Shown: one piece after another, positions 7,131-25,899 of the stretch
Layout of the letters: the number at the start of each line of letters is the position of its first letter
How positions within the stretch are numbered: the stretch's first letter is position 1
Origin: Puniceicoccus vermicola
Lineage (GTDB): Bacteria > Verrucomicrobiota > Verrucomicrobiia > Opitutales > Puniceicoccaceae
Direction of reading: 5' to 3'
DNA: 64,000 bases
Assembly: GCF_014230055.1 (NCBI RefSeq)
Contig: NZ_JACHVA010000101.1
Coordinates: forward strand, 186,001-250,000
The notes under the pieces: model-generated
Databases searched by the model: none
Told to the model about the DNA's origin: nothing
Seen by the model: the letters and a program-made list of their open reading frames with translations, nothing else
Translations under genes and position numbers: made by a program

Positions 7131-8681
7131 TCAGGTATCTCGTCCGTTTGTATATCCTGGCCCTCCTGCGGCTGTAAATCCTCCGCTTTTTCCTTCCAGA
7201 TTGTCAGTCATCCAAAATGAGAAGAGATCGCCTCGATCCAATTTGAAATGGAACCGAACCCCTTCCTCTTCCAGGGAGTAGAGGTCTTTATTCTTCCAAC
7301 GGATCTGTGCGCATGTGCTGTTGCCAACAAACCCGAGACAATCCTCGTGCGAGAGACCGGGGATAGGCTTTTCATCGGTGCCGATCGCGGCGACGCTCAG
7401 ACGGGACCCAACCGTAGTGGCGTTGACGAAAAGGTGTCGGCCTTTAAATCGCATGCGCCTTGTTTGAAGTTCACTTCCAGGGTAGTTGGGGCGCATAGAG
7501 GCGAATCCGTCGCGGCGAATCTTGGCCAGGCCCATTGCTCCGTTCGAATACATGCCGTTGGTTCTCCAGTCCTCTGTAATACGGTTGGGATCGCCGCCAT
7601 AAGCCGAATAGTAGAGCCAGAGTTCATCTCCAACGATGCAGCACATGCCTGCGCTGGATTCCACATATCCGAATTCCCATGAACCGTATTCACGACGGGC
7701 GGGAATGAAAGGCTGGCGGTCTGGTCGATACCAATGGCATCCGTCGCGACTGCTGCTTAAGTAGAGTTCAGTGAGTTTGGGCTCGCCCCGAGATTCACCG
7801 TGAGGATTGTTCGGACCGTGTAGGATTTGGTGAAATCCGATCATCATGCTCTCGTAGGCAATGGCATCGAAATTGTAGAGTTGGGCCGGGAAATATTTGC
7901 CGTGATCGAGGCAGTCGGCCCGCATCCAAGGGGTCATGCTTTCTTCGGTCCAACGAGCGCTTTCCAGGAAATGATCTCCTTCGTGGTAGTAGCGTGCACG
8001 ACAGGCTAGCGGATGCCACTTTCGGATGCTTTGCACCCATTTTTGCCGAATTGGGTTGTAATACATCGTGCTGCGGTCGTCCATAGGTCCGGACTTCCCC
8101 CGAAAATCCCAGTGGACTCCATCCTTGGAGGTGTAAAGAAGCGCTTCAAAATTGTCGATCCATGGTGGGCCGACGGGATTGGGTTCGCGCATCAGCATCT
8201 TGTAGCGAGGTTCATCACCGGTCGCATTATGGTCGATGATGACACTGCCAGAATCTGGATGAACTTCTTGGGGGAGAATTAGATTTGTGCCCGGGACTAT
8301 GTCGAGAGAGGGGCGTTCCCAATGGATCCCATCGCGGCTGATGGCTAGGGCTGCGTAGCCGAGGTAGCCGGTCATATACCACATCTTAAAGAGCTGGTAG
8401 CGATCGTCGAACCAGACGCCTCCACTTTTGGCAATGGCACACGGAGGAAATCGAGGGTCGGTTTCCTCTGCCGTCTCCGGCCAGAGAATGGGGTTCCCAG
8501 AGAACTTGGCGGGTTGGTGGTAGCAGGGGCTCATGCTTGTTCGATGAGCTTCCCATAGATAATCGTCTAGAAAAAGTTGTCGGCCAGGTTGGAGTTCGAT
8601 TATGTCCGGGATTTGCTTTAGATAGGGGACTTGAATGGGTTGATTGTTATTGAGGTCGTTGGGGTGAGGAAATGAATTCAT
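7131..8681 (-). CDS. Five-bladed beta-propeller glycoside hydrolase-like protein (GH32/GH43-like)
   Basis: I prefer the ATG at 8681 (MNSFPHPNDLN) to the TTG two codons earlier. The 516-residue product lacks a signal peptide. It has repeating blade motifs such as FLDDYLWE, YQLFKMWYM, AISRDGIHWERP, YTSKDGVHWDFRG, SSSRDGCHWYRP and DELWLYYSAYGG. The recurring SxDGxHW pattern is typical of the GH32/GH43/GH68-type propeller proteins common in Verrucomicrobiota and Planctomycetota. No specific substrate can be read from it. It is the first gene of a leftward unit that continues into cassette A1/B1, and is divergent from the AraC gene at 8833 with an operator-like motif between them. Confidence 0.7.
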   Translation of the reverse strand: MNSFPHPNDLNNNQPIQVPYLKQIPDIIELQPGRQLFLDDYLWEAHRTSMSPCYHQPAKFSGNPILWPETAEETDPRFPPCAIAKSGGVWFDDRYQLFKMWYMTGYLGYAALAISRDGIHWERPSLDIVPGTNLILPQEVHPDSGSVIIDHNATGDEPRYKMLMREPNPVGPPWIDNFEALLYTSKDGVHWDFRGKSGPMDDRSTMYYNPIRQKWVQSIRKWHPLACRARYYHEGDHFLESARWTEESMTPWMRADCLDHGKYFPAQLYNFDAIAYESMMIGFHQILHGPNNPHGESRGEPKLTELYLSSSRDGCHWYRPDRQPFIPARREYGSWEFGYVESSAGMCCIVGDELWLYYSAYGGDPNRITEDWRTNGMYSNGAMGLAKIRRDGFASMRPNYPGSELQTRRMRFKGRHLFVNATTVGSRLSVAAIGTDEKPIPGLSHEDCLGFVGNSTCAQIRWKNKDLYSLEEEGVRFHFKLDRGDLFSFWMTDNLEGKSGGFTAAGGPGYTNGRDT

Positions 8682-8745
8682 ACTCAAAAATTTTGAATGC
8701 GAGAGGTCGAAATGAGTTGGTTTTCAAGATCTAAGAGACTTGCGT

Positions 8746-8768
8746 TGTCCGAAGATGGTTTATTTGTA
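8746..8768 (-). promoter_or_regulatory. Operator-like motif, copy M (upstream of the leftward hydrolase-A1-B1 unit)
   Basis: On the minus strand this site reads TACAAATAAACCAT then TTCGGACA. It is nearly the same as the copies at 9774-9797 and 11643-11666, where the first block is TACAGATAGAC. It lies about 65-87 bases upstream of the 8681 start and in the same orientation to that gene as the other copies are to theirs. A site for the neighbouring AraC protein is the simplest reading (inference). Confidence 0.55.
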
Positions 8769-8822
8769 TTTTTGTATGAGACTCCATTCGGTTTGTAAAA
8801 TGAACTATATAGTCTATTTGTA
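8763..8822. promoter_or_regulatory. Cluster of four TTTGTA direct repeats in the divergent promoter
   Basis: TTTGTA occurs at 8763, 8771, 8792 and 8817, all in the same orientation and ending 11 bases before the AraC start at 8833. The 8771 and 8792 copies are 21 bases apart, two helical turns, as expected for tandem AraC half-sites. It may serve autoregulation. Confidence 0.4.
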
Positions 8823-8832
8823 AGATCTTACT

Positions 8833-9789
8833 ATGTCTGACGATGCGCTTGCAGTTTGGGATTCCGTAATCCGCGATTATGGGTTCGAGTCGAAGGGGTC
8901 CCACTATGCGGGGCACTCTTATCTAATCCATCAGAGCAGTTTCGGTGTGGGGGCCGAGTTTCAGTTCCCGTCCGAGGACTATCGATGGAATGGCATGGAG
9001 CGAGGAGGCTCGGAAACGAATCGGTGGTTTACCTTTCAATGGACTCTGGAAGGCGAAGGAGAGCTTCGAGTAGAAGACAAGGTCTTTGCTCAGGGACCGG
9101 GCCAGGCCTTTTTGGTCCCGATCCCCTCAGAGCATGAATATAGGGTGTCCCCTTCGGGAAATGGATGGAAGTTCTTCTACTTATTCCTGAAGGATACGCA
9201 TTGGGTGGTCGATCGGCTGACACGCGCTGTTTCGGACTGGGTTTACACCTTTCCGGTTGAGGGAGGATCTCGCTTTCAATCTGAAACGCTGCGAGTGATC
9301 GAGTTGATGTTTTCGGGTCATCTGGATGATCCATTCGAAGCGGAGAAGGCTGCGTTGTGCTGGATGCTTGAGGTCGAGAGGCACTTGTATCAGCTCAAGC
9401 ATCCGGAGGATCCCCGGAAGGAATTACTTTTTATTGCGGACAAATTCTACCGGGAGAATCAGCAGCGTTCGTTTGGAGTAGAGGATTTCGCTCAGGTGCT
9501 GGGGATGGGACGTGCTCAGGCATCGATGCATTTCAAGCAGATTACCGGAATCTCCCCCGCTGCCTATTTCAATGAGTTACGTCTCAAAGATGCGATCTCA
9601 CTTCTGAGGCAGGGGTTTAAGCTCCAATATATTGCCCGGGAGACCGGCTTCGCGGATGCGAACCATTTGTGTAAGGTATTTCGCCGCGTTTATCATATGT
9701 CGCCCGGACAATTTAAAAAGATTCATGCGATCAACCGAGTATTGGAAGTGGATGATGTGGCGGACCGCCTGATTACAGATAGACAATAA
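8833..9789 (+). CDS. AraC-family transcriptional regulator
   Basis: The 318-residue product has an N-terminal cupin-like sensing half (FQWTLEGEGELRVEDKVF, then GPGQAFLVPIPSEHEYRV). From about residue 205 it has the double helix-turn-helix of AraC/XylS proteins: FGVEDFAQVLGMGRAQASMHFKQITGI in the first helix pair and LQYIARETGFADANHLCKVFRRV with SPGQFKK in the second. It is divergent from the 7131-8681 hydrolase. A conserved motif found in that divergent gap recurs across the end of this gene (9774) and before other units (11643, possibly 21522), so this regulator probably controls the local sugar genes. The inducer is likely a sugar, but its identity cannot be read. Confidence 0.93.
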   Translation: MSDDALAVWDSVIRDYGFESKGSHYAGHSYLIHQSSFGVGAEFQFPSEDYRWNGMERGGSETNRWFTFQWTLEGEGELRVEDKVFAQGPGQAFLVPIPSEHEYRVSPSGNGWKFFYLFLKDTHWVVDRLTRAVSDWVYTFPVEGGSRFQSETLRVIELMFSGHLDDPFEAEKAALCWMLEVERHLYQLKHPEDPRKELLFIADKFYRENQQRSFGVEDFAQVLGMGRAQASMHFKQITGISPAAYFNELRLKDAISLLRQGFKLQYIARETGFADANHLCKVFRRVYHMSPGQFKKIHAINRVLEVDDVADRLITDRQ

Positions 9790-9797
9790 TTCGGACA
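9774..9797 (+). promoter_or_regulatory. Operator-like motif, copy 1 (upstream of the GH-D-like glycosidase)
   Basis: The site has block TACAGATAGAC, then ATA, then TTCGGACA, with single-base separations. It overlaps the last codons of the AraC gene and sits about 100 bases before the ATG at 9896. It differs from the 11643 copy at only two or three positions over 24 bases. Confidence 0.55.
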
Positions 9798-9895
9798 TCG
9801 AGGGCATTTACCGCTGGGCGACCCTTCCTTATGATGGAAGGGATGCCTTTAGCAAAAATAGGAAAATCGGTAGCGGACCAGGGGGATGAACTCGT

Positions 9896-11632
9896 ATGAG
9901 TCTGGAGACCCCCAAAATCGCAGGGGTGGACGACATTGTCTCTCTGGGGATATTTCAATGGAGAATCTTGGATGGTTCCTTGACGATCCGCGATTCGGCT
10001 GGGCAGTCATTCCTTCTGCGTTCGGAGAACGCTTCATACTTTCAGCCTGTGGTCAACGGACGCAGGCTTTCAACGGAACTAGTGTCTGTCTCACGGGAGG
10101 GGGGCTCTGTCATCCTGCGCTATGCGGCGGAGGGTCTGGAAGAGATGCTGGTAGAGTTTACCGGGACGGAAGATCGGCTCGGGGTGGATTGCAGCTGCAC
10201 GCTTCGGTTTTCGGAGAAGGTTGAACTGAATCGAATCGAGATTTTTCCTCCGGGCACGGAGTTGAATGCCTACGATGTCGTGAATTTCCGGAACCGGCAT
10301 TATACTCCAGCGACGTGGCCTGAGTTGAATGTAGGTTCGGCCTTGGATACGGGAACCTATTCGGATGATTGGCAATTCGCTCCACATCCGACGGCTCTTC
10401 TCTTTCGACGGGATCGGCATGCGCTGTTTTGTGGTTTTCTCGATTTGCAGCCTAGCTTTGGAATGTCCCTGAGTGTCAAGCGAGGGGAAGTTGAAAGCTG
10501 GTTCTTGGATTTTGGCGATAGACCTCACGGATGGCAGATTCCGGGTGGTGAGAATCTTTTTGTTGGCCGGATGAGACTATTCACGCGCTCGAATGTCGAG
10601 GTGCATCAGATGTTTGCCCAGTTCGGAGATATGCTGATTGAGGAAAAAATCATCCCGGACGCTCAGGAGAAGGTCTTTCACGATTGGTGGAGAGAGCCGA
10701 TTTATTGCACTTGGAACGATCAACGAATGCTGTCCAACGGACAGTTCGAAGCGGAGTTAGTCGACCAGACTGCCGATTCGGTATCCAGCGCGCTGGAGCA
10801 ATTGAATGAGTCGATGGTTCGTCGGGCTGTAGAGGTTATTCAGCGCGAGAAGATTCCGGTTCGGACAATTTTGTTGGACGAAGGTTGGAATGTTGCGCGG
10901 GGTGATTGGAGGCCTCACACCCAGCGTTTTCCCGATCTTCGGCGATTGGTAAATGATCTCCATGAGCGTGGATTTAAGGTCATGGTTTGGTGGAATTGGG
11001 CTGAAATCGCCAAGGATGCAAAGATTCCCTCTCACGAATTGGCTGAGGGTGGATGGCTCAATCGAAGGGGATTTCGCTGGCGGGATTACTCCGATCGAAA
11101 AATTCAGGAGAGTTATTTGAAGCCTTTGATGCGAACGTTTTTCTCAGACGGACCCGGGTGTTATGATCTTGACGGGGTGAAGACGGATTTTCTTGCCGAT
11201 AAGGTGCATCCAGAAAACCCGCTTTGCGATTCATCTTGGCGCGGCGAGGAGCAATATTTTTTGAAGGTTTTCGATCTGTTTTACTCAGAAATGAAGAGGC
11301 ATAAGCCAGAGGCGTTGCATTTGGGTTGCGCGGGAAACTACTGGCTTTCGCCCTATATCGATCTAAACCGGACCTACGATGTTCATACCAGTAATTGGAG
11401 GGAGCACGAAGAGCGTGCCCGCATGTTAAAGAGCACCTGCCCGGGGGTCACCGTCTCGTATGACATGCATGAATTTGATGAATCTCTTGACGAATACTTC
11501 GCATCGGCTTCCCGAATGCAGGCCTGCGTTGAGGTGGGGAATGTATTGGCTCTTCGCGACAACTTCTTTTCAAAGCCTCGTGTAGCAGATTCAGAGCACT
11601 GGGAGGTGCTTCGGAGAGGTTGTGCTGGGTGA
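9896..11632 (+). CDS. Cytoplasmic alpha-galactosidase-like glycosidase (clan GH-D / GH36-like)
   Basis: The 578-residue product has an N-terminal beta-sandwich (to about residue 260) followed by a TIM barrel. The barrel contains VRTILLDEGWN at about 322, VMVWWNWAE at about 362 and YDLDGVKTDFLADK at about 423-436. In clan GH-D enzymes the Asp after the DGxK block is the nucleophile, which here would be Asp431. The Asp in SYDMHEFDE (about 523) is a candidate acid/base. There is no signal peptide, so it should act on imported oligosaccharides. The assignment to alpha-galactoside hydrolysis is from fold and motif only; GH31- or GH36-related activities on other alpha-linked sugars are possible. 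It follows the AraC gene, with an operator-like site in the gap. Confidence 0.72.
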   Translation: MSLETPKIAGVDDIVSLGIFQWRILDGSLTIRDSAGQSFLLRSENASYFQPVVNGRRLSTELVSVSREGGSVILRYAAEGLEEMLVEFTGTEDRLGVDCSCTLRFSEKVELNRIEIFPPGTELNAYDVVNFRNRHYTPATWPELNVGSALDTGTYSDDWQFAPHPTALLFRRDRHALFCGFLDLQPSFGMSLSVKRGEVESWFLDFGDRPHGWQIPGGENLFVGRMRLFTRSNVEVHQMFAQFGDMLIEEKIIPDAQEKVFHDWWREPIYCTWNDQRMLSNGQFEAELVDQTADSVSSALEQLNESMVRRAVEVIQREKIPVRTILLDEGWNVARGDWRPHTQRFPDLRRLVNDLHERGFKVMVWWNWAEIAKDAKIPSHELAEGGWLNRRGFRWRDYSDRKIQESYLKPLMRTFFSDGPGCYDLDGVKTDFLADKVHPENPLCDSSWRGEEQYFLKVFDLFYSEMKRHKPEALHLGCAGNYWLSPYIDLNRTYDVHTSNWREHEERARMLKSTCPGVTVSYDMHEFDESLDEYFASASRMQACVEVGNVLALRDNFFSKPRVADSEHWEVLRRGCAG

Positions 11633-11642
11633 TTGCGGTTTC

Positions 11643-11666
11643 TACAGATAGACCATAGTTCGGACA
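11643..11666 (+). promoter_or_regulatory. Operator-like motif, copy 2 (upstream of the PEP-CTERM LamG gene)
   Basis: The blocks TACAGATAGAC, ATA and TTCGGACA appear here 47 bases before the ATG at 11713. The site continues into ACACTTGGACTATTG (11664-11678), which resembles ACACTAGGACAATTG at 21449-21463 before the sialidase gene (13 of 15 identical). Confidence 0.55.
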
Positions 11667-11712
11667 CTTGGACTATTGTCGAATATCGCACCATTTTATA
11701 CAATTTGAACAT

Positions 11713-12762
11713 ATGAATTACCCCAACTTAAAGACTTACTGCCGGTTTCCCGGTTCAGGAAAAATTCGTTCCTCTCTTCTCGCTGCGGCCTGTTTGGTGG
11801 GGGCAACGGTGGAGGCCGAGATGCTCTATTATTTGCCTTTCGATGATGGCACCAGTTTCAGCTTGGCCAATAGTGGGAGCCAGGGTGGGGTAGCTTCTGT
11901 CAGTAGCGGATCACCCTCGGGGTCTACATCGCAACTTCCTTCGTCACTAGGGGGCGGGGCTTCTCTCTATTTAGGTAATTCGGTTACATCAATCAGTTTG
12001 CCGAACAGTACCGATGTTTTGAGACAGGATACTGCTGGGGCGCAGATGACTCTTTCGACTTGGTTTTATGTGGATTCCGCCACACCTGCATGGATCGATT
12101 TCTTGAGCGTGAATGGTCAGAGCGGCTGGCAGTATTCAATGTCTGGAGGCACTGGCGCAAATGCGCGAAAATTGAGAATTACGGCGAACGGAGTCCAGAG
12201 GTATTCTAGTAATCAGTTTGCTTTGGGCGAATGGGTTCAGCTGGTCGCAACCTGGGACACTTCTGTAGGATATGATGCCTTTATTGACGGCACTTACAGT
12301 GATTTCAATCAGGACAATGCATTCTCAGCGGGCGGGCCTTACACTGATTCGATTCTTCTTAAGGGAGGACAAGCGCCGATCTATTTTGATGATCTTGCTA
12401 TCTGGAATGGGATTCTCACAGATGGCCAAGCCCGTTCGCTGAGCCAGGCTCCCGAGCAGCTGACGGGGTATAACGCCGGAATTATGAATTCCCTCTTTGA
12501 GGAATGGGAAACTGGCGCTGCGGGTGGTTCGACGGTGATTGTAGATGACCTGGAGTGGGATTATGCTTCCGGTTTCGATACGACGGGGAAATCCGCCGGA
12601 GATGTTTGGCAAGAGGGCGGGAACTACTACATTTGGTTGGACGGAGAAGGAGCAGAAGTTTCCGGTGTCTCCGCAGCGATACCCGAACCTTCCGCCTATG
12701 CGGGATGGATTGGGTTGATGTCGGTTCTGCTTCTTCTGATCCGTCGGAAATCTCGGGAGTGA
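11713..12762 (+). CDS. Secreted PEP-CTERM protein with a LamG/concanavalin-like domain
   Basis: The ATG at 11713 is chosen because it gives a plausible export signal ending near VGATVEA. The upstream in-frame start at 11668 lies inside the operator-like region. The body carries a LamG-type jelly roll: LSTWFYVDSATPAWIDFLS, then GEWVQLVATWDTS and YFDDLAIWNGILT. The C-terminus is IPEPSAYAGWIG, a hydrophobic stretch and RRKSRE, a canonical PEP-CTERM sorting signal processed by an exosortase. Such proteins are usually exported and anchored or released at the surface. The LamG domain suggests glycan or cell-surface binding. It lies between glycosidase genes and shares their operator-like motif. Confidence 0.85.
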   Translation: MNYPNLKTYCRFPGSGKIRSSLLAAACLVGATVEAEMLYYLPFDDGTSFSLANSGSQGGVASVSSGSPSGSTSQLPSSLGGGASLYLGNSVTSISLPNSTDVLRQDTAGAQMTLSTWFYVDSATPAWIDFLSVNGQSGWQYSMSGGTGANARKLRITANGVQRYSSNQFALGEWVQLVATWDTSVGYDAFIDGTYSDFNQDNAFSAGGPYTDSILLKGGQAPIYFDDLAIWNGILTDGQARSLSQAPEQLTGYNAGIMNSLFEEWETGAAGGSTVIVDDLEWDYASGFDTTGKSAGDVWQEGGNYYIWLDGEGAEVSGVSAAIPEPSAYAGWIGLMSVLLLLIRRKSRE

Positions 12763-13106
12763 AGATTGTTTCAGTCCTCTCATTTTGGATGTCTGGAACG
12801 AAGATCTCGGGCGCAACAGATGATTGAATGAGGCTTCTGCTGAGGCCTTTTGGAATAGAGAAAATCGCTTTGAAAGGCCCTTCCTCGGTGGATGAATGCA
12901 ACCGGGGGAGGGCTTTTGTTGTAGTTCTTGAGACTTTATGATTCTGGCTTGATCGCTAAGGCCAGGAGAATGAAAGCGAGAGATCTCCTGCTTCGCTGTT
13001 CGGCTCCAACATTTGGACCACATTTTAGACACCCCGACCATTGTGAAATTGGATGGCAGTCGGTAGACTGTTTCTCGATATTCACTTTCGAACATTTCCC
13101 ATCCCC
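12763..13106 (+). other. Intergenic region before the GH42-like pair
   Basis: This 344-base gap holds the terminator at 12877-12921. A weak relative of the GGAC part of the local operator motif occurs near 13007-13022 (ACATTTGGACCACAT). A 256-residue reverse-strand ORF spans the area but has no recognisable domain and mostly mirrors the PEP-CTERM gene. Confidence 0.5.
12877..12921 (+). terminator. Intrinsic terminator after the PEP-CTERM LamG gene
   Basis: A 13-bp stem is formed by GCCCTTCCTCGGT (12877-12889) and ACCGGGGGAGGGC (12901-12913), where the non-Watson-Crick positions are G-U pairs. It is followed directly by TTTTGTTGT. Confidence 0.75.
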
Positions 13107-16100
13107 ATGTTTCTCCGTATTCTGCTATTGCTCTCCGTTTTTTCGTTTCCGGGACTCCCGTCTCCGTTGATGGCCTCTACCAATGAGGATCCTGTAGAGC
13201 GGATTCCGGAGATGGCCGACGTGGAGTCTTGGGTCATTGCTGAGAACGGGTCTGATCGCCTAAGTTGGTTCCCCATTTCAGAACGTCTTGGCTTGGGAAT
13301 TACAGATTTTCGCAGGGGAGACATCGCGGACATTTGGCTAAAAGAGCCGGTCCGGGTTCCCGAGTGGAGCGATGAGTTTTCTCTCGATATTCATTCTACC
13401 GGAGGATGGCCTACAGGCTTTCAGTTGCGGCTGTTGGTGAAGGATTGCCAGGGGCATGTTTACGACTATGATTTGCATTCGAATCTTCTTCCGAAGAGAA
13501 CCCACTATTTCGCGAACAACCAACGCCCGCGTGCGGTTCGAGTTTATGCGCCGGGGTTCAAAAGGCCCGTAATGAGGCGTGCAGGAGCGACTTTGGATGC
13601 AGTGGACCCTTCCGTGCGTGACCTGCCAGAGCCTCCTTTGTCAGTGGTGGGGATACGTTTTGAGGGTTTGAACTATAAAGAGCCCGCTGCCGGTGAGAAT
13701 GCCAAACCCTTGGTGTTTTCCTTGGGGAACTTCAAGTTTACCCGCTTACTCTGGCGGGAGGCAGACTTCTATTATTCTCTGGCGGACACTGAATATTTTG
13801 GCGCGGATGATCCCGTTCCTTCTCTCTCCTTAGGTGAACTCAAGCAACCGCATTACGGAGAGCAGTTCGTGATTAGCTGGGATGTGAGGGATGAATATGC
13901 CGGACAGCCTTTTCTGGTCGGTGGAGAGGAAATTCTCGTCGACCGGGACGATCCCGATTACCGGAATACTTTTCTACGCAAGATCGAGATTCCGGTTTTT
14001 GCGGAGGGAAGTTACTGGATTCGGGTCAAAAAGAAGTGGAATCGCGAGCCAGCACGTTTGACCAGCCGTATCGATGAGTTCGAATTTCGGCTCGATATCC
14101 TGGCTGGGGAGGAGCCGGCGGATCGCGAGGAGGTGGCTCCCGAAGTCCAGGTTCCTTATTCTTTTCTGCGGATGGCTCCAAATCGCGAGTCTTTTGTCGG
14201 GGAGGAAAATGATTCCGTTTTATGGGAAACGGCGTTTTGGCTTCCAGATGATGCGGATCGTCATGAGTATCAGTGGAAGCTGACGATTCGTCATGACAGT
14301 AGTGGTGAGCTGGTGGATGAATTCGAGGGAGATCTTGAGTCTGTTCCTCAGCGACAGATGGTTCCGGTTTCGCTGGGGAAGATGAAGGCAGGAACCTATC
14401 AGATGAAGATGGATGTTTTTGAGGACGGGGAGCTGATGGATCGGGAAACTCGACTCTTTGGTGTCAAAGAGGCTGAAAGTCCTTGGTCAGAGATTCCCGC
14501 GTCGATTCCTTCCTACGAGGAAATTCTCGAAGGAGATTCTATCATTTATCTCATGCCACACGGATACGGCTCGATACGCGACCCGGAGGAACGTTGGCGG
14601 TTGTTGAAGAATTTTTTGGATCGGGCTTCGGAAATTACTTCGACCGTAGAGTTCATTGTGCGTTGGCGAGATATCGAGCCAATGGAGGGAGTTTATGACT
14701 GGTCGGAGTTGGACCGGTTTCTTGACTACGCGGAGACGAAGGGCGTGACGGTACTGATTTGGCCCTCGATCATGGGCGCCGAGCCGGAATGGCTGCCCGC
14801 GATCTATGAGAAGCCGCGCAACGAAGATGGGGAAATTTACAATCCGATTCCCTACACATTTCACGGAGGGCGCATTAATCACTACTACTCGGATGAGGTT
14901 AAGGCGGCGACTTTGAATCTGTATCGTACGTTGGCAGAACGTTATCGGGGTAGTCCCGCAGTTCATGGCTACTTTGTGCTCACCGAACATCCTTATGATA
15001 TGCCGACGTCGGGTTGGTATATCGGAGGTTCGGAGGAAACCCTTGGCCAATTCCGAGATCACCTGCGCAGGGAGTTTCAAACGTTGGAGGCGGTGAATTC
15101 CCGATGGGCAACTGATTATGCGAGTTGGGAGGCAATCATCGTTCCACCCGAGGAGGCTACGGGAAGGCAGCGACTAGATTGGCTCGCCTTTCTCCGACGT
15201 GGTGTGGGCAGCCATCTGATCGATTGCGTGGAAACGATTCGAGAGGTCGATGATCATCGAATTATTCAGGTTTACACCGGGGGGCAGACCCCGGAGACTA
15301 TGGACGCGCTCAGTGATATGGGATGCATGTTGGCGGACGGAGGAAGTCAGAATCCAGAGACCTTCGGTGGGGCAGCCATGCAAATGGCCGACTACGGACT
15401 CCAGCGTCGGGCGGAAGAAGTCTCGGTGGGAAACTGGTCGGAACACTTTCCGACTCAGTTGGACGCAACCCTATATACCATGCTCCTAGGAGGAGGAGGA
15501 AATGCCAATATCAAGATGTTTTATCCTGTTCGCCTTGATTATGAGCAGCTTCTTTCGGCTCCGCATTCGCTGGATCGTTTTCTCCAGTTTATTCCAATCT
15601 GGAAGGAGCTGAGGTACACCAAGACCATGCCTCGTGAAGTCTATGTGCTGAATGACTTGAATGCTGGCATGCTTGAAATCGAACGTTTGAACTACCACGG
15701 GGAACTTTGGCCGGATATGGTGCTCATGGAGGCGGGAATCAATGCACCTTGGGGAGATATCGACCGAGCTTGTAGAGGCAAAATGATGATTCTCCCCGGC
15801 ATCACGGTCTACGAGGAAAAGACCATTGATAAGATTGTTCAATATGTTGAAGATGGGGGAACCGTATTCTTGTATGCTGATTCGGGCCGCAGTTCTCCGG
15901 ATCTTCCTGAAGAAGATTGGATCTTACTGCGTCGATTTGGGCTATCCGTCCCAGTTACTGAAACGGGAGTCGGGGGGTATGTTGACGTGATTCCGGTAGC
16001 GGGTGATGTTTTTGACGAAGAGGCTGGTACGTGGCGTTTTCGAACTGCTTGGCCTCATGACTCAAAAGAAGGCGAAGAAGTGTTCGCGTTTTTCGATGAA

Positions 16101-16538
16101 AAAGTGGATGCATCGGCCATCACTCGTTTTCCTTTTGGAGAAGGGCAAGTGATTGTTGCGTGGGCTTCGTCGATTGTTCCGGCCGTAATTGAGGAAGAAT
16201 ATCCGTTTATGCGTGATATTGCCCGGTGGGTTGGAGTCGATTTGCTCGCAAGATCGGATTCGCCATCTCTGTGGACCAACCTACTGTCTCAAGAGAATAG
16301 CGACGATTATTACGGGTTGGTTTATCATCCAGCCTATCTAATGCGGGGGAAAAAGGCGGTAGACGGAACCGTTTTTTGGAGACTGCCGCAAGGAGAGTAT
16401 CAGGTTGCGGAAATGATCTCAGAACAGATCTTGGGAGTTTTTTCCGCCGATACGCTTTGGAATGAAGGTCTATCCACGGCACTGGGGCCCCGTGAGGTCG
16501 CTATCTATAGAATGAAGAAAACAGAATCTTTAAAATGA
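13107..16538 (+). CDS. Large secreted GH42-like beta-galactosidase-type enzyme, paralogue 1
   Basis: The ATG at 13107 begins a strong signal peptide (FLRILLLLSVFSFPGLPSPLMA), so I prefer it to the upstream TTG. The mature protein is about 1120 residues. The first 450 or so form beta-rich domains. A GH-A barrel follows, with FIVRWRDIEPMEGVYDWSEL at about 527, WPSIMGAEPEWLPA, then GYFVLTEHPYD (Glu627, candidate acid/base) and VGNWSEHFP (Glu779, candidate nucleophile). The spacing of about 150 residues fits GH42. After that comes a trimerisation-like domain (KMMILPGITVYEEKTIDKIVQYVEDGG). The canonical NE pair before the acid/base is TE here, so the activity may differ from true beta-galactosidase. 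It overlaps the next gene by ATGA. Confidence 0.75.
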   Translation: MFLRILLLLSVFSFPGLPSPLMASTNEDPVERIPEMADVESWVIAENGSDRLSWFPISERLGLGITDFRRGDIADIWLKEPVRVPEWSDEFSLDIHSTGGWPTGFQLRLLVKDCQGHVYDYDLHSNLLPKRTHYFANNQRPRAVRVYAPGFKRPVMRRAGATLDAVDPSVRDLPEPPLSVVGIRFEGLNYKEPAAGENAKPLVFSLGNFKFTRLLWREADFYYSLADTEYFGADDPVPSLSLGELKQPHYGEQFVISWDVRDEYAGQPFLVGGEEILVDRDDPDYRNTFLRKIEIPVFAEGSYWIRVKKKWNREPARLTSRIDEFEFRLDILAGEEPADREEVAPEVQVPYSFLRMAPNRESFVGEENDSVLWETAFWLPDDADRHEYQWKLTIRHDSSGELVDEFEGDLESVPQRQMVPVSLGKMKAGTYQMKMDVFEDGELMDRETRLFGVKEAESPWSEIPASIPSYEEILEGDSIIYLMPHGYGSIRDPEERWRLLKNFLDRASEITSTVEFIVRWRDIEPMEGVYDWSELDRFLDYAETKGVTVLIWPSIMGAEPEWLPAIYEKPRNEDGEIYNPIPYTFHGGRINHYYSDEVKAATLNLYRTLAERYRGSPAVHGYFVLTEHPYDMPTSGWYIGGSEETLGQFRDHLRREFQTLEAVNSRWATDYASWEAIIVPPEEATGRQRLDWLAFLRRGVGSHLIDCVETIREVDDHRIIQVYTGGQTPETMDALSDMGCMLADGGSQNPETFGGAAMQMADYGLQRRAEEVSVGNWSEHFPTQLDATLYTMLLGGGGNANIKMFYPVRLDYEQLLSAPHSLDRFLQFIPIWKELRYTKTMPREVYVLNDLNAGMLEIERLNYHGELWPDMVLMEAGINAPWGDIDRACRGKMMILPGITVYEEKTIDKIVQYVEDGGTVFLYADSGRSSPDLPEEDWILLRRFGLSVPVTETGVGGYVDVIPVAGDVFDEEAGTWRFRTAWPHDSKEGEEVFAFFDEKVDASAITRFPFGEGQVIVAWASSIVPAVIEEEYPFMRDIARWVGVDLLARSDSPSLWTNLLSQENSDDYYGLVYHPAYLMRGKKAVDGTVFWRLPQGEYQVAEMISEQILGVFSADTLWNEGLSTALGPREVAIYRMKKTESLK

Positions 16539-19500
16539 AACGAAAATATCTTACAGTGGTTTCTCTCTTGGCCGGACTTGGTCTTACTTGCCCCTTGTTC
16601 GGTACTTCCGAATTGAAGGCTTTCGATGTTCTGAATGTGGATGATTGGAAGGTCGAAATACGGGAGGGAGATACAGTCCGCCTCCTGTCTAGTGAGGACG
16701 ATCTATTAGCCGTCGATTTTGACGTTGCGGTAGACCGATCCCAAATGGTTGGGCATGTCCGCCGGAAAGAAGGGGGCTTTCGGCTCTTGCTGAAAGAACC
16801 GATAGCACTCGCGCCTGAGGACCAGCGCGTTGTCTTCGAAGTGCGGATGAAAGGGGTGAAGGAAGATACCTATCAGGTTCGACCCCTGCTTGAGGACGAA
16901 AATGGGGAGACTATCTCTTACCGAGCCGTTCCGATTCGCAGTTTTCAGGAATCCCACGATGGATGGAAGTGGATGAAAACTCATGTCTTTGATCTAACAG
17001 AAGCGGGCGGGGCTACGGACAACATTTTTCGAGTTGAAGGGGGAGACCTGAATGCCTGGCCAGATGGGAATCTTACGTTCCGTGGGTTTCAGGTCGTTCT
17101 CTTTGCCAATCGTGGAAAGCGAGCAGAGGGAGAGAGTTCTGGAACGATTTACCTCGGGAACATTGAATTGGGCGGGAAACAGGTGCCTGATAGCCCGTTT
17201 GCCTTCGCCGATTCTCTTCTCGAGGAGAAAGGCAAATACGAGATTAGCTTTGAGATCCGATCAGCGTTTCAAGGAGCCCCAGTAGAGGAGATGGTTGAGA
17301 CCCTTGATTTTGACCCGGATAACGAAGCCAGTCGTCGTCAACGAATCGAGTTGCCGATAGGAGACCTTCACAACAGTTGGGTCCGTTACCAGGTGCGGGA
17401 CGAAGAAGGTATGCCAGTGGTGAGCGAGGATATCCGCTGGGAGCAAAATATATCGCCCGAAGTTTCGAAGGATGTGGCGAGTATTGATCTCACACAGCGT
17501 CCCCTCTTGGGGCTGGTTCGGATGAATCCGGACCGTTTGGATGATTCAAAACAGACAGGAGGTGTTTACCGCGAAGATGAAGAAATGAACGTGCAATTTC
17601 GCATATTTGAACCGGAAGATGGTTCCGAATCCCTGACGTTACAATGGCAATTTATGCCCTATCTGAGTGATAAAATTATTGATTCAGGGGAAGAAGATGT
17701 TCGATTTGAGGGGGCCTCCTTCGTGGACGCGAACGTTGTTTTACCGGTTGTAAAGGATCGTGATGCCTACCGGATTTCCTACACCGTTCTCGATAAAGAG
17801 CAAAAAACAGTGGATGGAGGGGAGTATGTGTTGGGGGTCGCCCGGGAACAAATTCCAGCTTACATTTCGAGGGACGGGAACTTGCCTGATCGGAATGTGA
17901 TCAAACGGCATCCTTACTTCCGAACAACCTATTTTTACAAGCGGAGTCGCGGGGAAGTCCCGGTCGAGGAGGATATTCTCGAAAATTTTTCAGAGATGGT
18001 GGACGAGTCGAAGCAGATGGCCTCGCATATTACCTATATGGTGGATTTGGCCGAATTCGAGATCCTCCCGGGGGTGTATGATTTTGCCTTGATGGATCAA
18101 ATCATGGATGTCGCAGCGGATAATGGTGCGGGGATTACAGTTCGCTTGGCGCATACGGAGCAGGAGAAGCCTTATCGATGGTTGCCTTACACCCTGCCGC
18201 GAAGCTTTGACGGGACGCCTCTGGAGGGGCACGGTTATTACGGAAGTTATTCCGTCGCAGATCCAGACTATCGCGATTCTTGGCATCGTGCCTTCAAAGC
18301 CGTTCATGATCGTTATCAAGAGCATCCTGCGTTCGAAGGCTATTACGTGATGCAGGCCGGAGGAGAATGGGCTATCCCGGATGAGCCATGGAACGGGTAC
18401 ATTTCCGATTATTCCGTTGCGGGTCAGAACGGGTTTCGGGATTACCTGAAAAATACTCTTGGGCTCGACTTACAGCAATTGAATGACCGTTGGTCGACCG
18501 ATTATACTTCCTGGGAGCAAGTGATGCCTCCGTTGCCGGATTTGTCGAAGGGTAAAGCGCCGGACCTTCGTCCGCAGTGGGTGGACTTTCAGCGTTGTAA
18601 AAACTTTTGGCGTTCGAGCTGGTATAACCGAGTTACCCAACGCATCCGCAGTTATGATGAGCAGCGCGTCATCATTGTTTACGGTGGGTTTCGAAACGTT
18701 GGCAACGACGAGCTGCTGGATCTTGTCGATTACTTTCACAACGGAGGGAACCATTATTTGCAGGGAGAGGGAACGATGGTGAAAATGTGGGAAGACGACC
18801 GAGTTGGCTGGATCAATGAACCCCATCATCCTCATGGCTGGGCCGCCTACGGGGATCCTGCCGACCGGGGTTGGGTTCTGGATTGGCAGATGTATGTCTC
18901 TATAGCTCAATCAGGAGGAGGGGGAGCAAACTTGCATGTTTATTATTTTCCGAATCCCGGCGTCGATCTTACGGCGCATTATGGGGGGACCTACGCCTAC
19001 GACCGTTTCGAGCGCTACAAGCCGATCTTGCGGGAGTTTCAGGAGATGACTTTGGTCCAAGACCCAAAGCAGGTAGCAGTGATTCAGGACGAAAAGACCC
19101 TGCTGACGAAACATCGAACTACCTTTATGGCGCGTAAGTCTGACCTGCGGCGTTGGTTCGAGTTGATGAAACTGGATGCAGTCGATTTCGAATTCTACCG
19201 GGAAGATGAGGAGGCCAATTATAAAATGCTGGTTTTGAACCCCATTGACGAGGTTTTGAGCGAGGACACGATTGAGGTGGTAAACCGGATGGCCCGCAAC
19301 GGAGCATTGGTGGTGATGTCTGCACGCACAGGTCGTTACACGACTGATGAGCAGCACGGCGAGTATCCACTTCTAAAGAAGCTAGAAATTCCGCTGCCGA
19401 CTGGGACATGGGAAATGAATGAAGAAGATGTGGTTGCGAAGATCGAGGAATCCGATTGGCTCGGTTCGTCGGAAGGCGGATTGCCCTTCTTTACACAGGA

Positions 19501-20098
19501 GGATCTTCGGAATGATTTAGCGAAAGAGGATCTCTATGAGTCCTATTGGAAGTGGCCATACCGATTTATCCCGGAGACCGATTACTTTGGTTATTACAAA
19601 GGAAATCTGGATGTGGGTGGAGAAACTCTCGCGACCTTCGTCGATGGCGGTGTCGCGGCTTCTCTATATTCGGTGGGTGAAGGACAGGTTCTCGTCTTCT
19701 GGGGAACTCCGGAGATGAAGCCTGAAGAGCAGAACGGCCTCATGGCAGCGATTGCCAAGAAGGCCGGGGTTACCAACGGTACTATGGATAATCCGATTCC
19801 CTACATGCTGGAGGGAGTCGATGAGTCTATGGATCGTTTCTACACCTTCATCTACGAAGAGAAAGCAGGGATTTATCTGCAAAAAATCGGAAATGTTCCC
19901 GATGGGGAATGGTTTGTCGATGACATGGTTACCGATACACGCATGGGTACCTACGACGGAACCTTGATTCGGGAAAACGGGATGGAGTTAGAGTTTCGAT
20001 CCGGGAACTCGCCTTTAAAAGTTCTCCGCTTCATCCGCCCGAAGAAGATGGGCAATGCGAAATGGATGGAGAAGTATCCGGATTATACCGGGAACTAA
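16535..20098 (+). CDS. Large secreted GH42-like enzyme, paralogue 2
   Basis: The ATG overlaps the stop of the previous gene as ATGA, so translation is probably coupled. The 1187-residue product has a signal peptide (MKRKYLTVVSLLAGLGLTCPLFG) and the same layout as its neighbour. It has beta-domains to about residue 460, then a barrel with DLAEFEILPGVYDFALMDQI, GYYVMQAGGEWAIPDE (Glu611, candidate acid/base) and WINEPHHPHGW (Glu762, candidate nucleophile). A trimerisation-like domain follows (KMLVLNPIDEVLSEDTIEVV). Both share the RWxTDYxSWE block about 50 residues after the acid/base. Two diverged tandem copies suggest different linkages in the same polymer (inference). Its stop overlaps that of the convergent broken AraC gene. 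Confidence 0.75.
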   Translation: MKRKYLTVVSLLAGLGLTCPLFGTSELKAFDVLNVDDWKVEIREGDTVRLLSSEDDLLAVDFDVAVDRSQMVGHVRRKEGGFRLLLKEPIALAPEDQRVVFEVRMKGVKEDTYQVRPLLEDENGETISYRAVPIRSFQESHDGWKWMKTHVFDLTEAGGATDNIFRVEGGDLNAWPDGNLTFRGFQVVLFANRGKRAEGESSGTIYLGNIELGGKQVPDSPFAFADSLLEEKGKYEISFEIRSAFQGAPVEEMVETLDFDPDNEASRRQRIELPIGDLHNSWVRYQVRDEEGMPVVSEDIRWEQNISPEVSKDVASIDLTQRPLLGLVRMNPDRLDDSKQTGGVYREDEEMNVQFRIFEPEDGSESLTLQWQFMPYLSDKIIDSGEEDVRFEGASFVDANVVLPVVKDRDAYRISYTVLDKEQKTVDGGEYVLGVAREQIPAYISRDGNLPDRNVIKRHPYFRTTYFYKRSRGEVPVEEDILENFSEMVDESKQMASHITYMVDLAEFEILPGVYDFALMDQIMDVAADNGAGITVRLAHTEQEKPYRWLPYTLPRSFDGTPLEGHGYYGSYSVADPDYRDSWHRAFKAVHDRYQEHPAFEGYYVMQAGGEWAIPDEPWNGYISDYSVAGQNGFRDYLKNTLGLDLQQLNDRWSTDYTSWEQVMPPLPDLSKGKAPDLRPQWVDFQRCKNFWRSSWYNRVTQRIRSYDEQRVIIVYGGFRNVGNDELLDLVDYFHNGGNHYLQGEGTMVKMWEDDRVGWINEPHHPHGWAAYGDPADRGWVLDWQMYVSIAQSGGGGANLHVYYFPNPGVDLTAHYGGTYAYDRFERYKPILREFQEMTLVQDPKQVAVIQDEKTLLTKHRTTFMARKSDLRRWFELMKLDAVDFEFYREDEEANYKMLVLNPIDEVLSEDTIEVVNRMARNGALVVMSARTGRYTTDEQHGEYPLLKKLEIPLPTGTWEMNEEDVVAKIEESDWLGSSEGGLPFFTQEDLRNDLAKEDLYESYWKWPYRFIPETDYFGYYKGNLDVGGETLATFVDGGVAASLYSVGEGQVLVFWGTPEMKPEEQNGLMAAIAKKAGVTNGTMDNPIPYMLEGVDESMDRFYTFIYEEKAGIYLQKIGNVPDGEWFVDDMVTDTRMGTYDGTLIRENGMELEFRSGNSPLKVLRFIRPKKMGNAKWMEKYPDYTGN

Positions 20099-20878
20099 TC
20101 GATGTCCGGATTCCGAACATTCAAGGCTTTCAGCTGATCGCGAAAAGAACGGGGAGAGCAGCCCTCCAAGCGGGTGAACCAATTGGAGAACTTTGATCGA
20201 TGCTTAAATCCTAGATCGTAAGCGATTGTTTTTCTGCTGGTGTCGAGGTCGGCCAATCTTTGCTGCTCTCACGTAAAGCGTCTTCGTTCGAAGTAGCGGG
20301 TAGGGGTTAGATGGGTCGCTTGCGAATAAATCCGATTCATATGTCGGACGGTCAGATTGGCTCGATCTGCGATGGTTTGCAGGCAGAGAGGAGCGTCTAG
20401 TGGAGCGTTCGATAAATGCTCATGGATTTCATGAGCGCGTGAATTGCTTTCTTGAGGTTCCAGATAAGTTTCTTTTTCGGTAGCGAGGACTTCGAGTAAG
20501 GCTTCGAGCCACCGAATAAAAGCACCTAATCCGGCGATATAGTCATTTACCGAGCAGGAAATACCGGGGATATGAGCTTCGTGGGCTGACAAACGTGTCG
20601 AGACGACTTTGTCCAGTTTCCAGGTGGCTTGATTCAATTTCGGATCTTTGGGGGACCTTAACTGAACCACCTCGCGGAAATTGAGCTCGGAGCCTGGTTG
20701 ATTGGACTCAAAATAGAAGTGGGCTGACCACAACTGAACTTCGCCTTGAATGACGTGGGTTCGACCTTGTGGTGGCATAATGAGCCAGTCGCCTTTCTTC
20801 GCTTTCCACTGTCTGCCGATGATTCTACAACCACCGAACCTTTTAGCACATTGATCTGGCCTGATAAAACCCCGGAGG
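20095..20878 (-). pseudogene. Broken AraC-family regulator
   Basis: The reverse strand encodes AraC pieces that cannot form one protein. The sensing half appears in two frames: GQINVLKGSVVV around 20840-20875, then GRQWKAKKGDWLIMPPQGR from about 20825 down to 20760. This implies a frameshift near 20835. The DNA-binding half runs through TIADRANLTVRHMNRIY and RYFERRRFT to an in-frame TGA (20271-20269). It then continues in the same frame as EQQRLADLDTSRKTIAYDLG and HRSKFSNWFTRLEGCSPRSFR, ending at a natural stop at 20097-20095. The second helix-turn-helix is therefore behind the premature stop. No start codon fits the upstream end. The 169-residue piece at 20269-20778 is only a fragment of this dead gene. 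Confidence 0.8.
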
Positions 20879-21284
20879 GGGGACTACATTGAATCTCAGC
20901 GAATTGAGTTTCTACGCCTGGGTGAGCACGGCGGGGCCGTACAACGGTGGGAATTATAATTTTTTAGTGTGAAGCAGTGAGACGGGTGCTTCGACGCTCG
21001 GCACGTATTCGAGTTCGGCGGCGATCGCGAGTAGTGTGCAGCCTACCAGTTCAAATCAGTTTGTATTGGACTTGTCGGGAACGCCAGAACTTCAGGGATT
21101 GACCGGAACCGTTTCGTTCACAGTCGGTGTTTATACAGACAACAAGCCCGCCAATGGCTTTATGCGGTTGGATCAGGTTGAAGTGAGCGGCGCTGCGATT
21201 CCGGAATCGGCGCCGTTTGGGTTGGTTGCTTGTGTGCTGGCTCTTTCCCTTGGCCTGAAGTGTCGTAACCATCGTTCGAGCTGA
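20879..21284 (+). pseudogene. 5'-truncated PEP-CTERM protein remnant with an in-frame stop
   Basis: One frame reads LNLSELSFYAWVSTAG and PYNGGNYNFLV, hits TGA at 20970-20972, and continues in the same frame as SSETGASTLGTYSSSAAIA through FVLDLSGTPELQGL to a PEP-CTERM-like tail (IPESAPFGLVACVLALSLG, then KCRNHRSS). The homologous position is often Arg in this kind of sequence, so a CGA-to-TGA change is plausible. An upstream stop in the same frame near 20865 and the absence of any signal peptide show that the 5' part is gone. It stands head to head with the broken AraC gene. Confidence 0.7.
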
Positions 21285-21337
21285 CTCGTATTCTCTGTTT
21301 TCGTATCTCTTTCCCATTGTTGGGGAATTCATATAGA

Positions 21338-21375
21338 GGGCGGGTTGGAGAGATCTTCAACCCGCTCTTCTTTTG
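21338..21375 (+). terminator. Intrinsic terminator after the PEP-CTERM remnant
   Basis: GGGCGGGTTG (21338-21347) pairs with CAACCCGCTC (21358-21367) with one G-U pair and a 10-base loop, followed by TTCTTTTG. Confidence 0.7.
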
Positions 21376-21423
21376 CTTCGTTTGACCTATTCTTTGGTGA
21401 AATCTGAGGGTCTGCACGAGAGA

Positions 21424-21463
21424 TACAGACAAATCGACTATCGGTTCGACACTAGGACAATTG
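21424..21463 (+). promoter_or_regulatory. Diverged operator-like motif upstream of the sialidase-like gene
   Basis: The region starts TACAGAC, contains GACTATCGG and ends with ACACTAGGACAATTG (21449-21463). The last block matches 11664-11678 at 13 of 15 positions. The spacing between blocks is longer than in the other copies. Confidence 0.35.
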
Positions 21464-21521
21464 ATCCGATTCGGGGAAGCGAGGTATGATGACCTACTAT
21501 GTTTCTTCTACAGAAGATGAA

Positions 21522-21545
21522 TACAGATACCTACTATTCTGAACT
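21522..21545 (+). promoter_or_regulatory. Second diverged operator-like motif before the sialidase-like gene
   Basis: TACAGATACCTACTATTCTG lies about 31-54 bases upstream of the ATG at 21576 and resembles the TACAGATAGAC / TTCGGACA motif. A direct repeat ACCTACTAT (21492 and 21529) is embedded nearby. Confidence 0.35.
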
Positions 21546-21575: not shown

Positions 21576-22754
21576 ATGGAAAAGACGAACACGATTGACT
21601 ACCAAGAAATTCCTACAGCGTTGGACGCTCCGGAGATAATTTCATCCCCAGGTCCTGAGTATCAAGCTGACAAGAGACCATTTCAGGGAATTCCTACGGT
21701 TGAACGCAGTCCCACCGGGAGGCTGTGGGCTGCGTGGTATGCTGGTGGAGACTGGGAGTGTTGGCAGAACTACGTTGTTGTGGTTACGAGTGATAACGAT
21801 GGATGCACTTGGTCTGATCCGCGTTGGGTGGTTGCTCCGGGGGGCACGGTTAGGGCTTTTGATCCTTGCTTGTGGATGGATCCGGAAAATCGCCTGTGGC
21901 TTTTCTGGGCCCAGTCGATGGCTGCCAAAGTTCCGAAGAATCTATATATGGACGGTCGCTTTGGGGTCTGGGCAATGGTCTGCGAGAATCATGAGTCGAA
22001 CCAGCCGACTTGGGCTGCTCCCAGGTATATTGGGGATGGCATCATGATGAATAAGCCAACCGTCTTAGAGTCCGGGGCATGGTTGCTGCCGATTTCCATT
22101 TGGAAAAAGTTGAAGGAGGGTGAGGGTCAGGCTCCACCGCTTTATCACGATATGGGGAAAAGGATTGGCGCGTATGCGGTCGTGAGTCGAGACAGCGGGA
22201 AGACCTTCGAGTATCTTGGAAAGTCCGATCAGCATGAGAAGCCTAGTTTCGATGAACATATGTTTGTCGAGCGGCGGGATGGGTCGATTTGGATGCTGAT
22301 TCGCACCGACGGGGGAATGTGGGAGACTTTCTCTTGCGATCAGGGGCGATCGTGGGAGAAAGGAAACCTTTCGTCTGTGCGAGGGGAGAGTTCTCGGTTT
22401 TTCATTCGCCGATTGAAGTCGGGAAATCTGCTGTTGGTCCGTAATGATTTTCCTGAAGGTCAGCAACCTAACCGCTCTCATTTGACTGCCTATCTGTCGG
22501 AGGACGATGGGTTCACATGGAAGGGAGGTCTACTGTTGGACGAGCGATCGAAGGTCTCATATCCGGATGGAACCGAAAGCGAGGATGGGACGATTTACGT
22601 CATTTACGACTACAACCGAACGGAAGAGCGCGAAGTGCTCATGGCTTCTTTTAATGAATCGGAAGTGCTCGCAGGTCGGTTTGAAACCGGAAATTCTCGG
22701 TTCAAGATATTGGTCAACAAAGCATCCGGTTCGGAAAGAGTTGCACACGTGTAA
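21576..22754 (+). CDS. Sialidase-fold (BNR/Asp-box) exoglycosidase
   Basis: The 392-residue product carries four Asp-box-type motifs: SDNDGCTWSDP (about 69), SRDSGKTFEYLG (about 205), SCDQGRSWEKG (about 250) and SEDDGFTWKGG (about 308). These are the signature of six-bladed sialidase/neuraminidase propellers. An arginine-containing RPFQGIPTVER block lies near the N-terminus. No signal peptide is seen, so it should be cytoplasmic or exported by an unusual route. Fold assignment is safe, but many Verrucomicrobial proteins of this type are not true sialidases. A sialate O-acetylesterase-like gene lies nearby, which fits acylated sugar acids as a target. Operator-like sites related to the AraC regulon precede it. 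Confidence 0.75.
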   Translation: MEKTNTIDYQEIPTALDAPEIISSPGPEYQADKRPFQGIPTVERSPTGRLWAAWYAGGDWECWQNYVVVVTSDNDGCTWSDPRWVVAPGGTVRAFDPCLWMDPENRLWLFWAQSMAAKVPKNLYMDGRFGVWAMVCENHESNQPTWAAPRYIGDGIMMNKPTVLESGAWLLPISIWKKLKEGEGQAPPLYHDMGKRIGAYAVVSRDSGKTFEYLGKSDQHEKPSFDEHMFVERRDGSIWMLIRTDGGMWETFSCDQGRSWEKGNLSSVRGESSRFFIRRLKSGNLLLVRNDFPEGQQPNRSHLTAYLSEDDGFTWKGGLLLDERSKVSYPDGTESEDGTIYVIYDYNRTEEREVLMASFNESEVLAGRFETGNSRFKILVNKASGSERVAHV

Positions 22755-22877: not shown

Positions 22878-23025
22878 CGTAGCATCGAGCCTTGCTCGAT
22901 GATCGCAATGGAAGCCCGGGTATCGAAGCTTCTTAGACCTTCGGCAGCCCTCAGTTCATCGGCGAAGCGCCGGTGCTACCGATCTCCCGTCGAATCACTC
23001 CGCTACTCGGCCGCCGCATCGCGGG
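22878..23025. repeat. Interspersed repeat, copy 2 (about 148 bases)
   Basis: This copy matches 2927-3075. It has the same 8-bp hairpin (arms CATCGAGC and GCTCGATG). Here the second inverted element is perfect, with inner arms CGGCG and CGCCG around AAG, nested in ATCGG/CCGAT. The last 23 bases overlap the end of the leftward esterase gene and encode its final seven residues and stop codon. Confidence 0.85.
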
Positions 23026-25078: not shown

Positions 25079-25140
25079 GGATTTAGAGGGATAGGGAGTG
25101 ACGCTCTGAAAATCAAGCATGAGGTTCCCATGGACGAAAA

Positions 25141-25899
25141 TTAAGAGGATCGTTTTTCCTGTCGGTATTCCGAAGGAGTCTTGCCGAGACGCTTTTTGAA
25201 GAGCCGGGAAAAGTAGTAGGGGTTTTCGAGGCCCACTTGAGCGGCGATCTCTTGCACCGGAAGGTCGGTAAAGGTGAGGAGTTCGCAGGCGACATCGAGC
25301 CGTTTCCTGATCAGATAGTGAAGGGGAGATTCGCCGAGATTTTGTTTGAACAGATGGCGGAGGTGGTCGGCGCTGATGTAGATTTCTGCGGCGAGGTCTG
25401 ACAGGTCCAGGGTTTCATGGTAACGGGTGTCGAGAATTTCGCGGGCGGTCTTGACTGGATGGGGCAGGGAGGAGGTTTCATGCTCTTCCCGCTGGATCTT
25501 TTGCAATTCCACGAGAATCCAACCCGAGAGCAGGTCGAGGCGGCGTTGTTTCAGGTCGCCAGGAGGGCCTTTCAATTCCGAGAGAAGCTGTTCGAAAGTC
25601 GCTCCGATGGTTTTGGGTGTGTTGTCCCAGACGTTGGGTCGGAGATCTTCGGAATCGCATCCTGAGATGCCGACACAGATCTGTCGGCCATCTTGATGAG
25701 GAATATCGCTGTGGGGAACGTTTGGCGGGCTGACTGTGATTTGGCCCTGCCGATAAGGGTAGTGGTTATTGTTCTGAACGAGCTCTCCTGATCCTTTCGC
25801 GTAGTAGACTAGTTCCGTGCAGTGGTGAGAATGAATCGGGCAGGGAGCATTCGCTTTCATTGGAATTTCAGCAACGAAAATACAGCGGATAGAGGCCAT
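25141..25899 (-). CDS. AraC-family transcriptional regulator
   Basis: The 252-residue product has an N-terminal cupin with HSHHCTELVYYAKGSGELV and QGQITVSPPNVPHSD. The C-terminal AraC DNA-binding domain has LDLSDLAAEIYISADHLRHL and then VQEIAAQVGLENPYYFSRLF with GKTPSEYR. The paired histidines in HSHHCTE are typical of sugar-responsive AraC proteins of this length. It is upstream of the esterase gene on the same strand and divergent from the MDR dehydrogenase at 26069, so it probably controls one or both. Confidence 0.93.
   Translation of the reverse strand: MASIRCIFVAEIPMKANAPCPIHSHHCTELVYYAKGSGELVQNNNHYPYRQGQITVSPPNVPHSDIPHQDGRQICVGISGCDSEDLRPNVWDNTPKTIGATFEQLLSELKGPPGDLKQRRLDLLSGWILVELQKIQREEHETSSLPHPVKTAREILDTRYHETLDLSDLAAEIYISADHLRHLFKQNLGESPLHYLIRKRLDVACELLTFTDLPVQEIAAQVGLENPYYFSRLFKKRLGKTPSEYRQEKRSS

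Follow-up and report, generated by a model that had tools for sequence, protein, structure and literature searches.

The repeated DNA element in this cluster of sugar-related genes is very probably the operator of the AraC-family protein encoded at 8833–9789, which we predict to activate a local galactoside-enzyme regulon and also to repress its own gene. The repeat structure of the element, its spacing, its genome-wide restriction to the cluster and its conservation with homologous regulators can all be read directly from the DNA. Coordinates refer to the window, the whole 64-kb stretch of DNA that was analysed.

Results

Structure and copies of the element

A preliminary description had reported a 23–24-base motif in three strong copies, at 8746–8768 on the minus strand (TACAAATAAACCATCTTCGGACA) and at 9774–9797 (TACAGATAGACAATAATTCGGACA) and 11643–11666 (TACAGATAGACCATAGTTCGGACA) on the plus strand. 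These positions and strands are correct, although the first block of the first copy reads TACAAATAAAC and not TACAGATAGAC. The motif itself is real, but the 24-base block covers no more than the upstream portion of a larger element. Lined up by their downstream sequence, the copies reveal a full element in which a 15-bp half-site, ACAnnTnGACyATnG, occurs twice in direct repeat, the period being exactly 20 bp. An extension that had been noted as shared between 11664 and 21449 (ACACTWGGACWATTG) is the second half-site of this direct repeat, 20 bp on from the first. Direct-repeat half-sites of about 15–17 bp with a period of about 20–22 bp are expected of an AraC-type operator, and this arrangement was found at the homologues described below and in front of four promoters in the window, where the elements start at 9775, 11644, 13009 and 21429:

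9775–9789 (ACAGATAGACAATAA) and 9795–9809 (ACATCGAGGGCATTT), plus strand: site 2; second half-site weak; overlaps the 3′ end of araC
11644–11658 (ACAGATAGACCATAG) and 11664–11678 (ACACTTGGACTATTG), plus strand: site 3; top-scoring pair in the window, 40.1 bits
13009–13023 (ACATTTGGACCACAT) and 13029–13043 (ACACCCCGACCATTG), plus strand: site 6; before the GH42-like gene pair
21429–21443 (ACAAATCGACTATCG) and 21449–21463 (ACACTAGGACAATTG), plus strand: site 4; 35.8 bits

Two weaker relatives had also been listed. That at 21424–21463 contains a full site (21429–21463), whilst 21522–21545 was dropped as being at chance level: it scores 8.5, when about 20 chance matches of at least 8 are expected in 64 kb, and it lies without a partner half-site downstream of the predicted promoter. 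The full site at 13009–13043 had been missed, as had the GH42-like gene pair (13107–20098) as a member of the group and a half-site at 8807–8821 on the minus strand. In leave-one-out scoring, the pairs at 21429 and 13009 reached 29.2 and 20.4 respectively, both above the top pair from any of 60 shuffled windows (maximum 19.9, computed with a model that did not include site 13009).

Promoter geometry

Each of the four full elements is followed by a promoter-like sequence:

9807–9835, plus strand: site 2 promoter; −35 TTTACC (9807–9812), 17 bp, −10 TATGAT (9830–9835)
11676–11704, plus strand: site 3 promoter; −35 TTGTCG (11676–11681), 17 bp, −10 TACAAT (11699–11704)
13041–13069, plus strand: site 6 promoter; −35 TTGTGA (13041–13046), 17 bp, −10 TAGACT (13064–13069)
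21461–21490, plus strand: site 4 promoter; −35 TTGATC (21461–21466), 18 bp, −10 TATGAT (21485–21490)

The second half-site overlaps the −35-like hexamer by 3 bp at all four sites, and the −10 starts 55 bp after the first half-site at three of them and 56 bp after it at 21429. An AraC-type operator has a promoter-near half-site that abuts or overlaps the −35 and a constant spacing to the −10, and both features are present here. Taken alone, the four window sites make this spacing only moderately significant, as the −10 score at offset 55 was reached by 204 of 5000 shifts.

Restriction to the cluster

With up to three mismatches, the two-half pattern matched the four cluster sites and a single further place, at three mismatches, in the 5.2-Mb genome (control, 0). 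The three copies reported earlier have no other counterpart in the genome even at three mismatches (reversed-pattern controls, 0), and GACACNNNGACNATTG occurs exactly three times genome-wide, always in this cluster. The patterns were drawn from the sites themselves, so that the result lies in the absence of other matches and not in the matches. These pattern scans covered the whole genome; a weight matrix, applied to the window and 306 kb of the same contig, gave 39.6, 37.3, 32.5 and 22.4 for the window sites and 20.0 for the best match in the flanks.

A core 18-mer allowed two mismatches gave 21 genome matches against 7 for its control; almost all of the other matches lie inside open frames without a second half-site, and were set aside. 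A candidate further site, TACAATAGACAATAATTCGGTCG in locus L066, was likewise rejected, having no paired half-site and lying under overlapping open frames.

The AraC gene and its divergent region

The regulator gene and the features between it and the divergent gene are as follows:

8833–9789, plus strand: AraC-family regulator, 318 aa; N-terminal cupin-like AraC_binding domain, C-terminal double helix-turn-helix
8807–8821, minus strand: lone half-site ACAAATAGACTATAT, covering araC's own −10 (TATAGT, 8808–8813)
8753–8767, minus strand: strong half-site ACAAATAAACCATCT of site 1; weak partner at 8734–8748, period 19
7131–8681, minus strand: propeller-like gene, first of the propeller-A1-B1 unit, divergent from araC; tentative target by position only

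The protein matches HTH_18 (2.7e-19), HTH_AraC (2e-11) and AraC_binding (9.1e-7) in Pfam. It has the C-terminal double helix-turn-helix of the AraC/XylS family at residues 220–296, and the N-terminal cupin ligand domain of the carbon-metabolism members is found above the AraC_binding cut-off. It is not an equivalog of E. coli AraC by NCBIfam PRK10572 (47.4 bits against a cut-off of 208). Two other genomes of the genus have no close homologue of the gene, which suggests that the cluster may have been gained recently here or lost there.

The half-site at 8807–8821 is the third-best in 64 kb (18.6 bits) under a model that was not trained on it, and the best first half-site in 64 kb (16.8) under a model built from homologues only. 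It is probably an autorepression site of araC. Within the divergent region (8681–8833) it lies 54 bp from site 1 (8753–8767), which has ATTTCG where a −10 would be expected and no good −10 at the fixed distance. The preliminary description had placed the propeller-A1-B1 unit in the regulon. As site 1 has one strong half, a period one base short and no −10 at the fixed place, control of this unit through it is possible but doubtful, and site 1 may serve autoregulation instead. No match to the propeller-like gene was found in Pfam or PDB.

Homologous araC loci in other genera

When 372 genomes of the order were searched with a profile, eight homologues of the window AraC protein stood clearly apart (at least 267 bits; next, 153), with only 25–37% identity to it overall; a search of the named genome collection with the single window protein returned no homologue. 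Promoters were read from the araC start toward the divergent gene. In seven of these loci (L048, L049, L051, L052, L053, L107 and L108) one half-site covers the start codon and −10 of araC, another follows at 20 bp, and a −10-like hexamer stands exactly 55 bp on (TATTAT, TATTAT, TATGAT, TATACT, TATGTT, TAGCCT and CATATT, in the same order). Across the homologues the mean score under the window model is highest at offset 20 and that of the −10 at offset 55, with 0 of 5000 shifts reaching either. The first half-site falls on the start codon and −10 of araC, which would in any case conserve part of it. The pooled model picks out the araC promoter as the top-scoring place in all seven loci.

A model trained on six homologue promoters and on nothing from the window gave the four window sites the top four ranks in 64 kb (27.4, 22.5, 22.4 and 21.3, against 16.2 for the next in the window and 17.2 for the highest match in 306 kb of that contig), in a cross-test that is not fully blind, the half-site register of the homologues having been chosen with knowledge of the window consensus. 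The earlier proposal that the motif is the operator of the 8833 protein is supported by this retrieval and by the same repeat and spacing at seven homologous araC starts, and we regard the predicted assignment as well supported.

The eighth homologue (L050) and the more distant L076 have the 20-bp repeat and no −10 at the fixed place. At L050, between araC and the next gene (9102–9252, minus strand), an inverted repeat TAGGCTAGA...TTTTAGCCTA follows the half-site-like GACAGATAAACCAAT. A match scoring 22.9 in the control AraC locus L121 was rejected, as it lies inside a gene with a poor −10. Several of the homologous araC transcripts look leaderless, with a GTG start inside the operator and a −10-like box some 6 bp ahead of it (L048:4480–4520, L049:9990–10015, L051:10745–10790 and L053:3595–3625).

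In three homologue loci (L051–L053) the divergent gene passes the NCBIfam cut-off for a GH4 alpha-galactosidase, and a GH4 homologue occupies the corresponding place in two more, so that five homologues in all face a GH4 gene. The closest homologues, L048 and L049, are not beside sugar genes, a point against the assignment; L048 adjoins a two-component system and an ABC protein, which suggests that the ligand may vary within the group.

Predicted target genes

Four transcription units follow the full sites:

9896–11632, plus strand: GH-D clan glycosidase, GH31/GH36-like (PF01055, 1.5e-10); predicted target
11713–12762, plus strand: LamG-domain protein (Laminin_G_3, 7.3e-8), with a PEP-CTERM tail according to the preliminary description; predicted target
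13107–20098, plus strand: GH42-like gene pair, 13107–16538 (signal peptide) and 16535–20098; predicted target operon
21576–22754, plus strand: sialidase-like BNR protein (BNR_2, 6.4e-29); predicted target

The single regulon proposed earlier is supported for the GH-D enzyme, the LamG/PEP-CTERM protein and the sialidase-like protein. The nearest solved relatives of the GH-D enzyme are alpha-galactosidases, by weak PDB matches. Both genes of the GH42-like pair match Glyco_hydro_42 (9.7e-21 and 9.6e-18), and the first, whose start was moved from 13053 to 13107 (the signal-peptide methionine), matches beta-galactosidases. The LamG gene looks leaderless, with TACAAT followed after 8 bp by the ATG at 11713 (11697–11715), and a leaderless start there is likely.

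Between the GH42-like pair and the sialidase-like gene lies a decayed AraC-family gene (20090–20860, minus strand), with a stop interrupting the frame within the helix-turn-helix region and no clear start. It is adjoined by a remnant with a PEP-CTERM-like tail and no long open frame (20930–21284, plus strand), which suggests gene loss in the cluster. A sialic-acid-esterase-like (SASA) protein with a GH2-type sugar-binding domain (23003–25120, minus strand) adjoins a second AraC gene at 25141–25899.

Discussion

We infer that the 8833 protein binds as a dimer to two direct 15-bp half-sites, at about −67 to −53 and −47 to −33, where its downstream subunit would overlap the −35 box by 3 bp. It would activate the four promoters of the GH-D enzyme, the LamG protein, the GH42-like pair and the sialidase-like protein, which have galactoside-cleaving or surface functions, presumably when its cupin domain binds a sugar, whilst occupation of the half-site across the araC −10 box would repress araC. 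A galactoside, alpha-galactoside foremost, is the leading guess for the ligand, given the homologues that face GH4 genes, the alpha-galactosidase relatives of the GH-D enzyme and the beta-galactosidase matches of the 13107 gene.

Several regulators lie within 30 kb, and the operator could in principle belong to the AraC protein of 25141–25899, to the decayed AraC gene at about 20090–20860 or to the LacI protein of 34507–35562; site 4 is close to the first two. No high-scoring half-site pair precedes the 25141 or 34507 genes, however, and LacI proteins usually do not bind direct repeats, whereas a half-site occurs in the promoter of the 8833 gene itself, and promoters of homologues of its product carry the same element. 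Ownership by another of these regulators is therefore very improbable. It is also very doubtful that the 8833 protein binds the sites mainly as a repressor, to be released by sugar. The lone half-site does cover araC's own −10, a repressing position, but at each of the four target promoters the site reaches just 3 bp into the −35 and stays clear of the −10, which is where AraC proteins usually sit to activate, and the −35 boxes are poor (TTTACC, TTGTCG, TTGTGA and TTGATC), as in activator-dependent promoters. It is scarcely credible that the copies are left over from duplication of promoter DNA, or are alike by chance, and have no regulatory role: sites 1–3 do share a spacer outside the repeat (TTCGG or TCGG), as might be expected of recent copies, but the likeness does not extend past the element, little besides the half-site letters is kept at sites 4 and 6, and distant genomes show the same layout.

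Activation by the 8833 protein would be ordinary bacterial sugar control, departing in nothing from the known AraC mechanism. E. coli AraC occupies direct-repeat half-sites at araI1–I2 of pBAD, with the promoter-near one over the −35, and regulates its own synthesis. The window system is alike in its direct repeats, its −35 overlap and its predicted autoregulation, but the E. coli half-sites are about 17 bp long with a 21-bp period and other letters, and no long-range looping site was found in the window. The five homologues that face a GH4 gene recall E. coli MelR, an AraC-family regulator divergent from a GH4 alpha-galactosidase in melAB, a comparison of gene layout and not of operator letters. 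The window itself does not have a MelR-type regulator beside and controlling a GH4 gene, a neighbour seen at L051–L053; its araC is followed by a GH-D enzyme, with no GH4 gene alongside.

MtlR of Pseudomonas fluorescens, a regulator of the AraC/XylS type, recognises two 15-bp blocks upstream of the −35 at PmtlE, with the consensus AGTGC-N5-AGTAT-N7-AGTGC-N5-AGGAT; its promoter-near half-site is weaker and is required for inducer control, and stronger upstream half-sites have also been cited for MelR and RhaS (PMC4514859). The likeness lies in a pair of similar 15-bp blocks in direct repeat ahead of the −35, a sugar-linked activator and a weaker downstream half-site, the last of which fits window sites 1 and 2. 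The two differ in letters and period (AGTGC-N5-AGTAT at 22 bp; ACAnnTnGACyATnG at 20 bp). A literature search on verrucomicrobial AraC operators yielded nothing relevant, and no earlier description of these half-site letters was found in literature lying mostly outside subscription journals.

It is tempting to go further, to a view we hold at slightly less than even chances: that a branch of AraC regulators in the order keeps one rigid design, in which the upstream half of the divergent enzyme's operator is made up of araC's start codon and −10, so that enzyme activation and regulator shut-off would be a single binding event, and that in the window this design has spread to four further promoters to give a one-cluster regulon. 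For an AraC subfamily whose operator we did not find described, the analysis provides an operator code together with a promoter layout. It assigns four sugar-enzyme transcription units to one predicted regulator, whose ligand thereby becomes testable, and the same model could be used to predict the targets of its homologues in other genomes.
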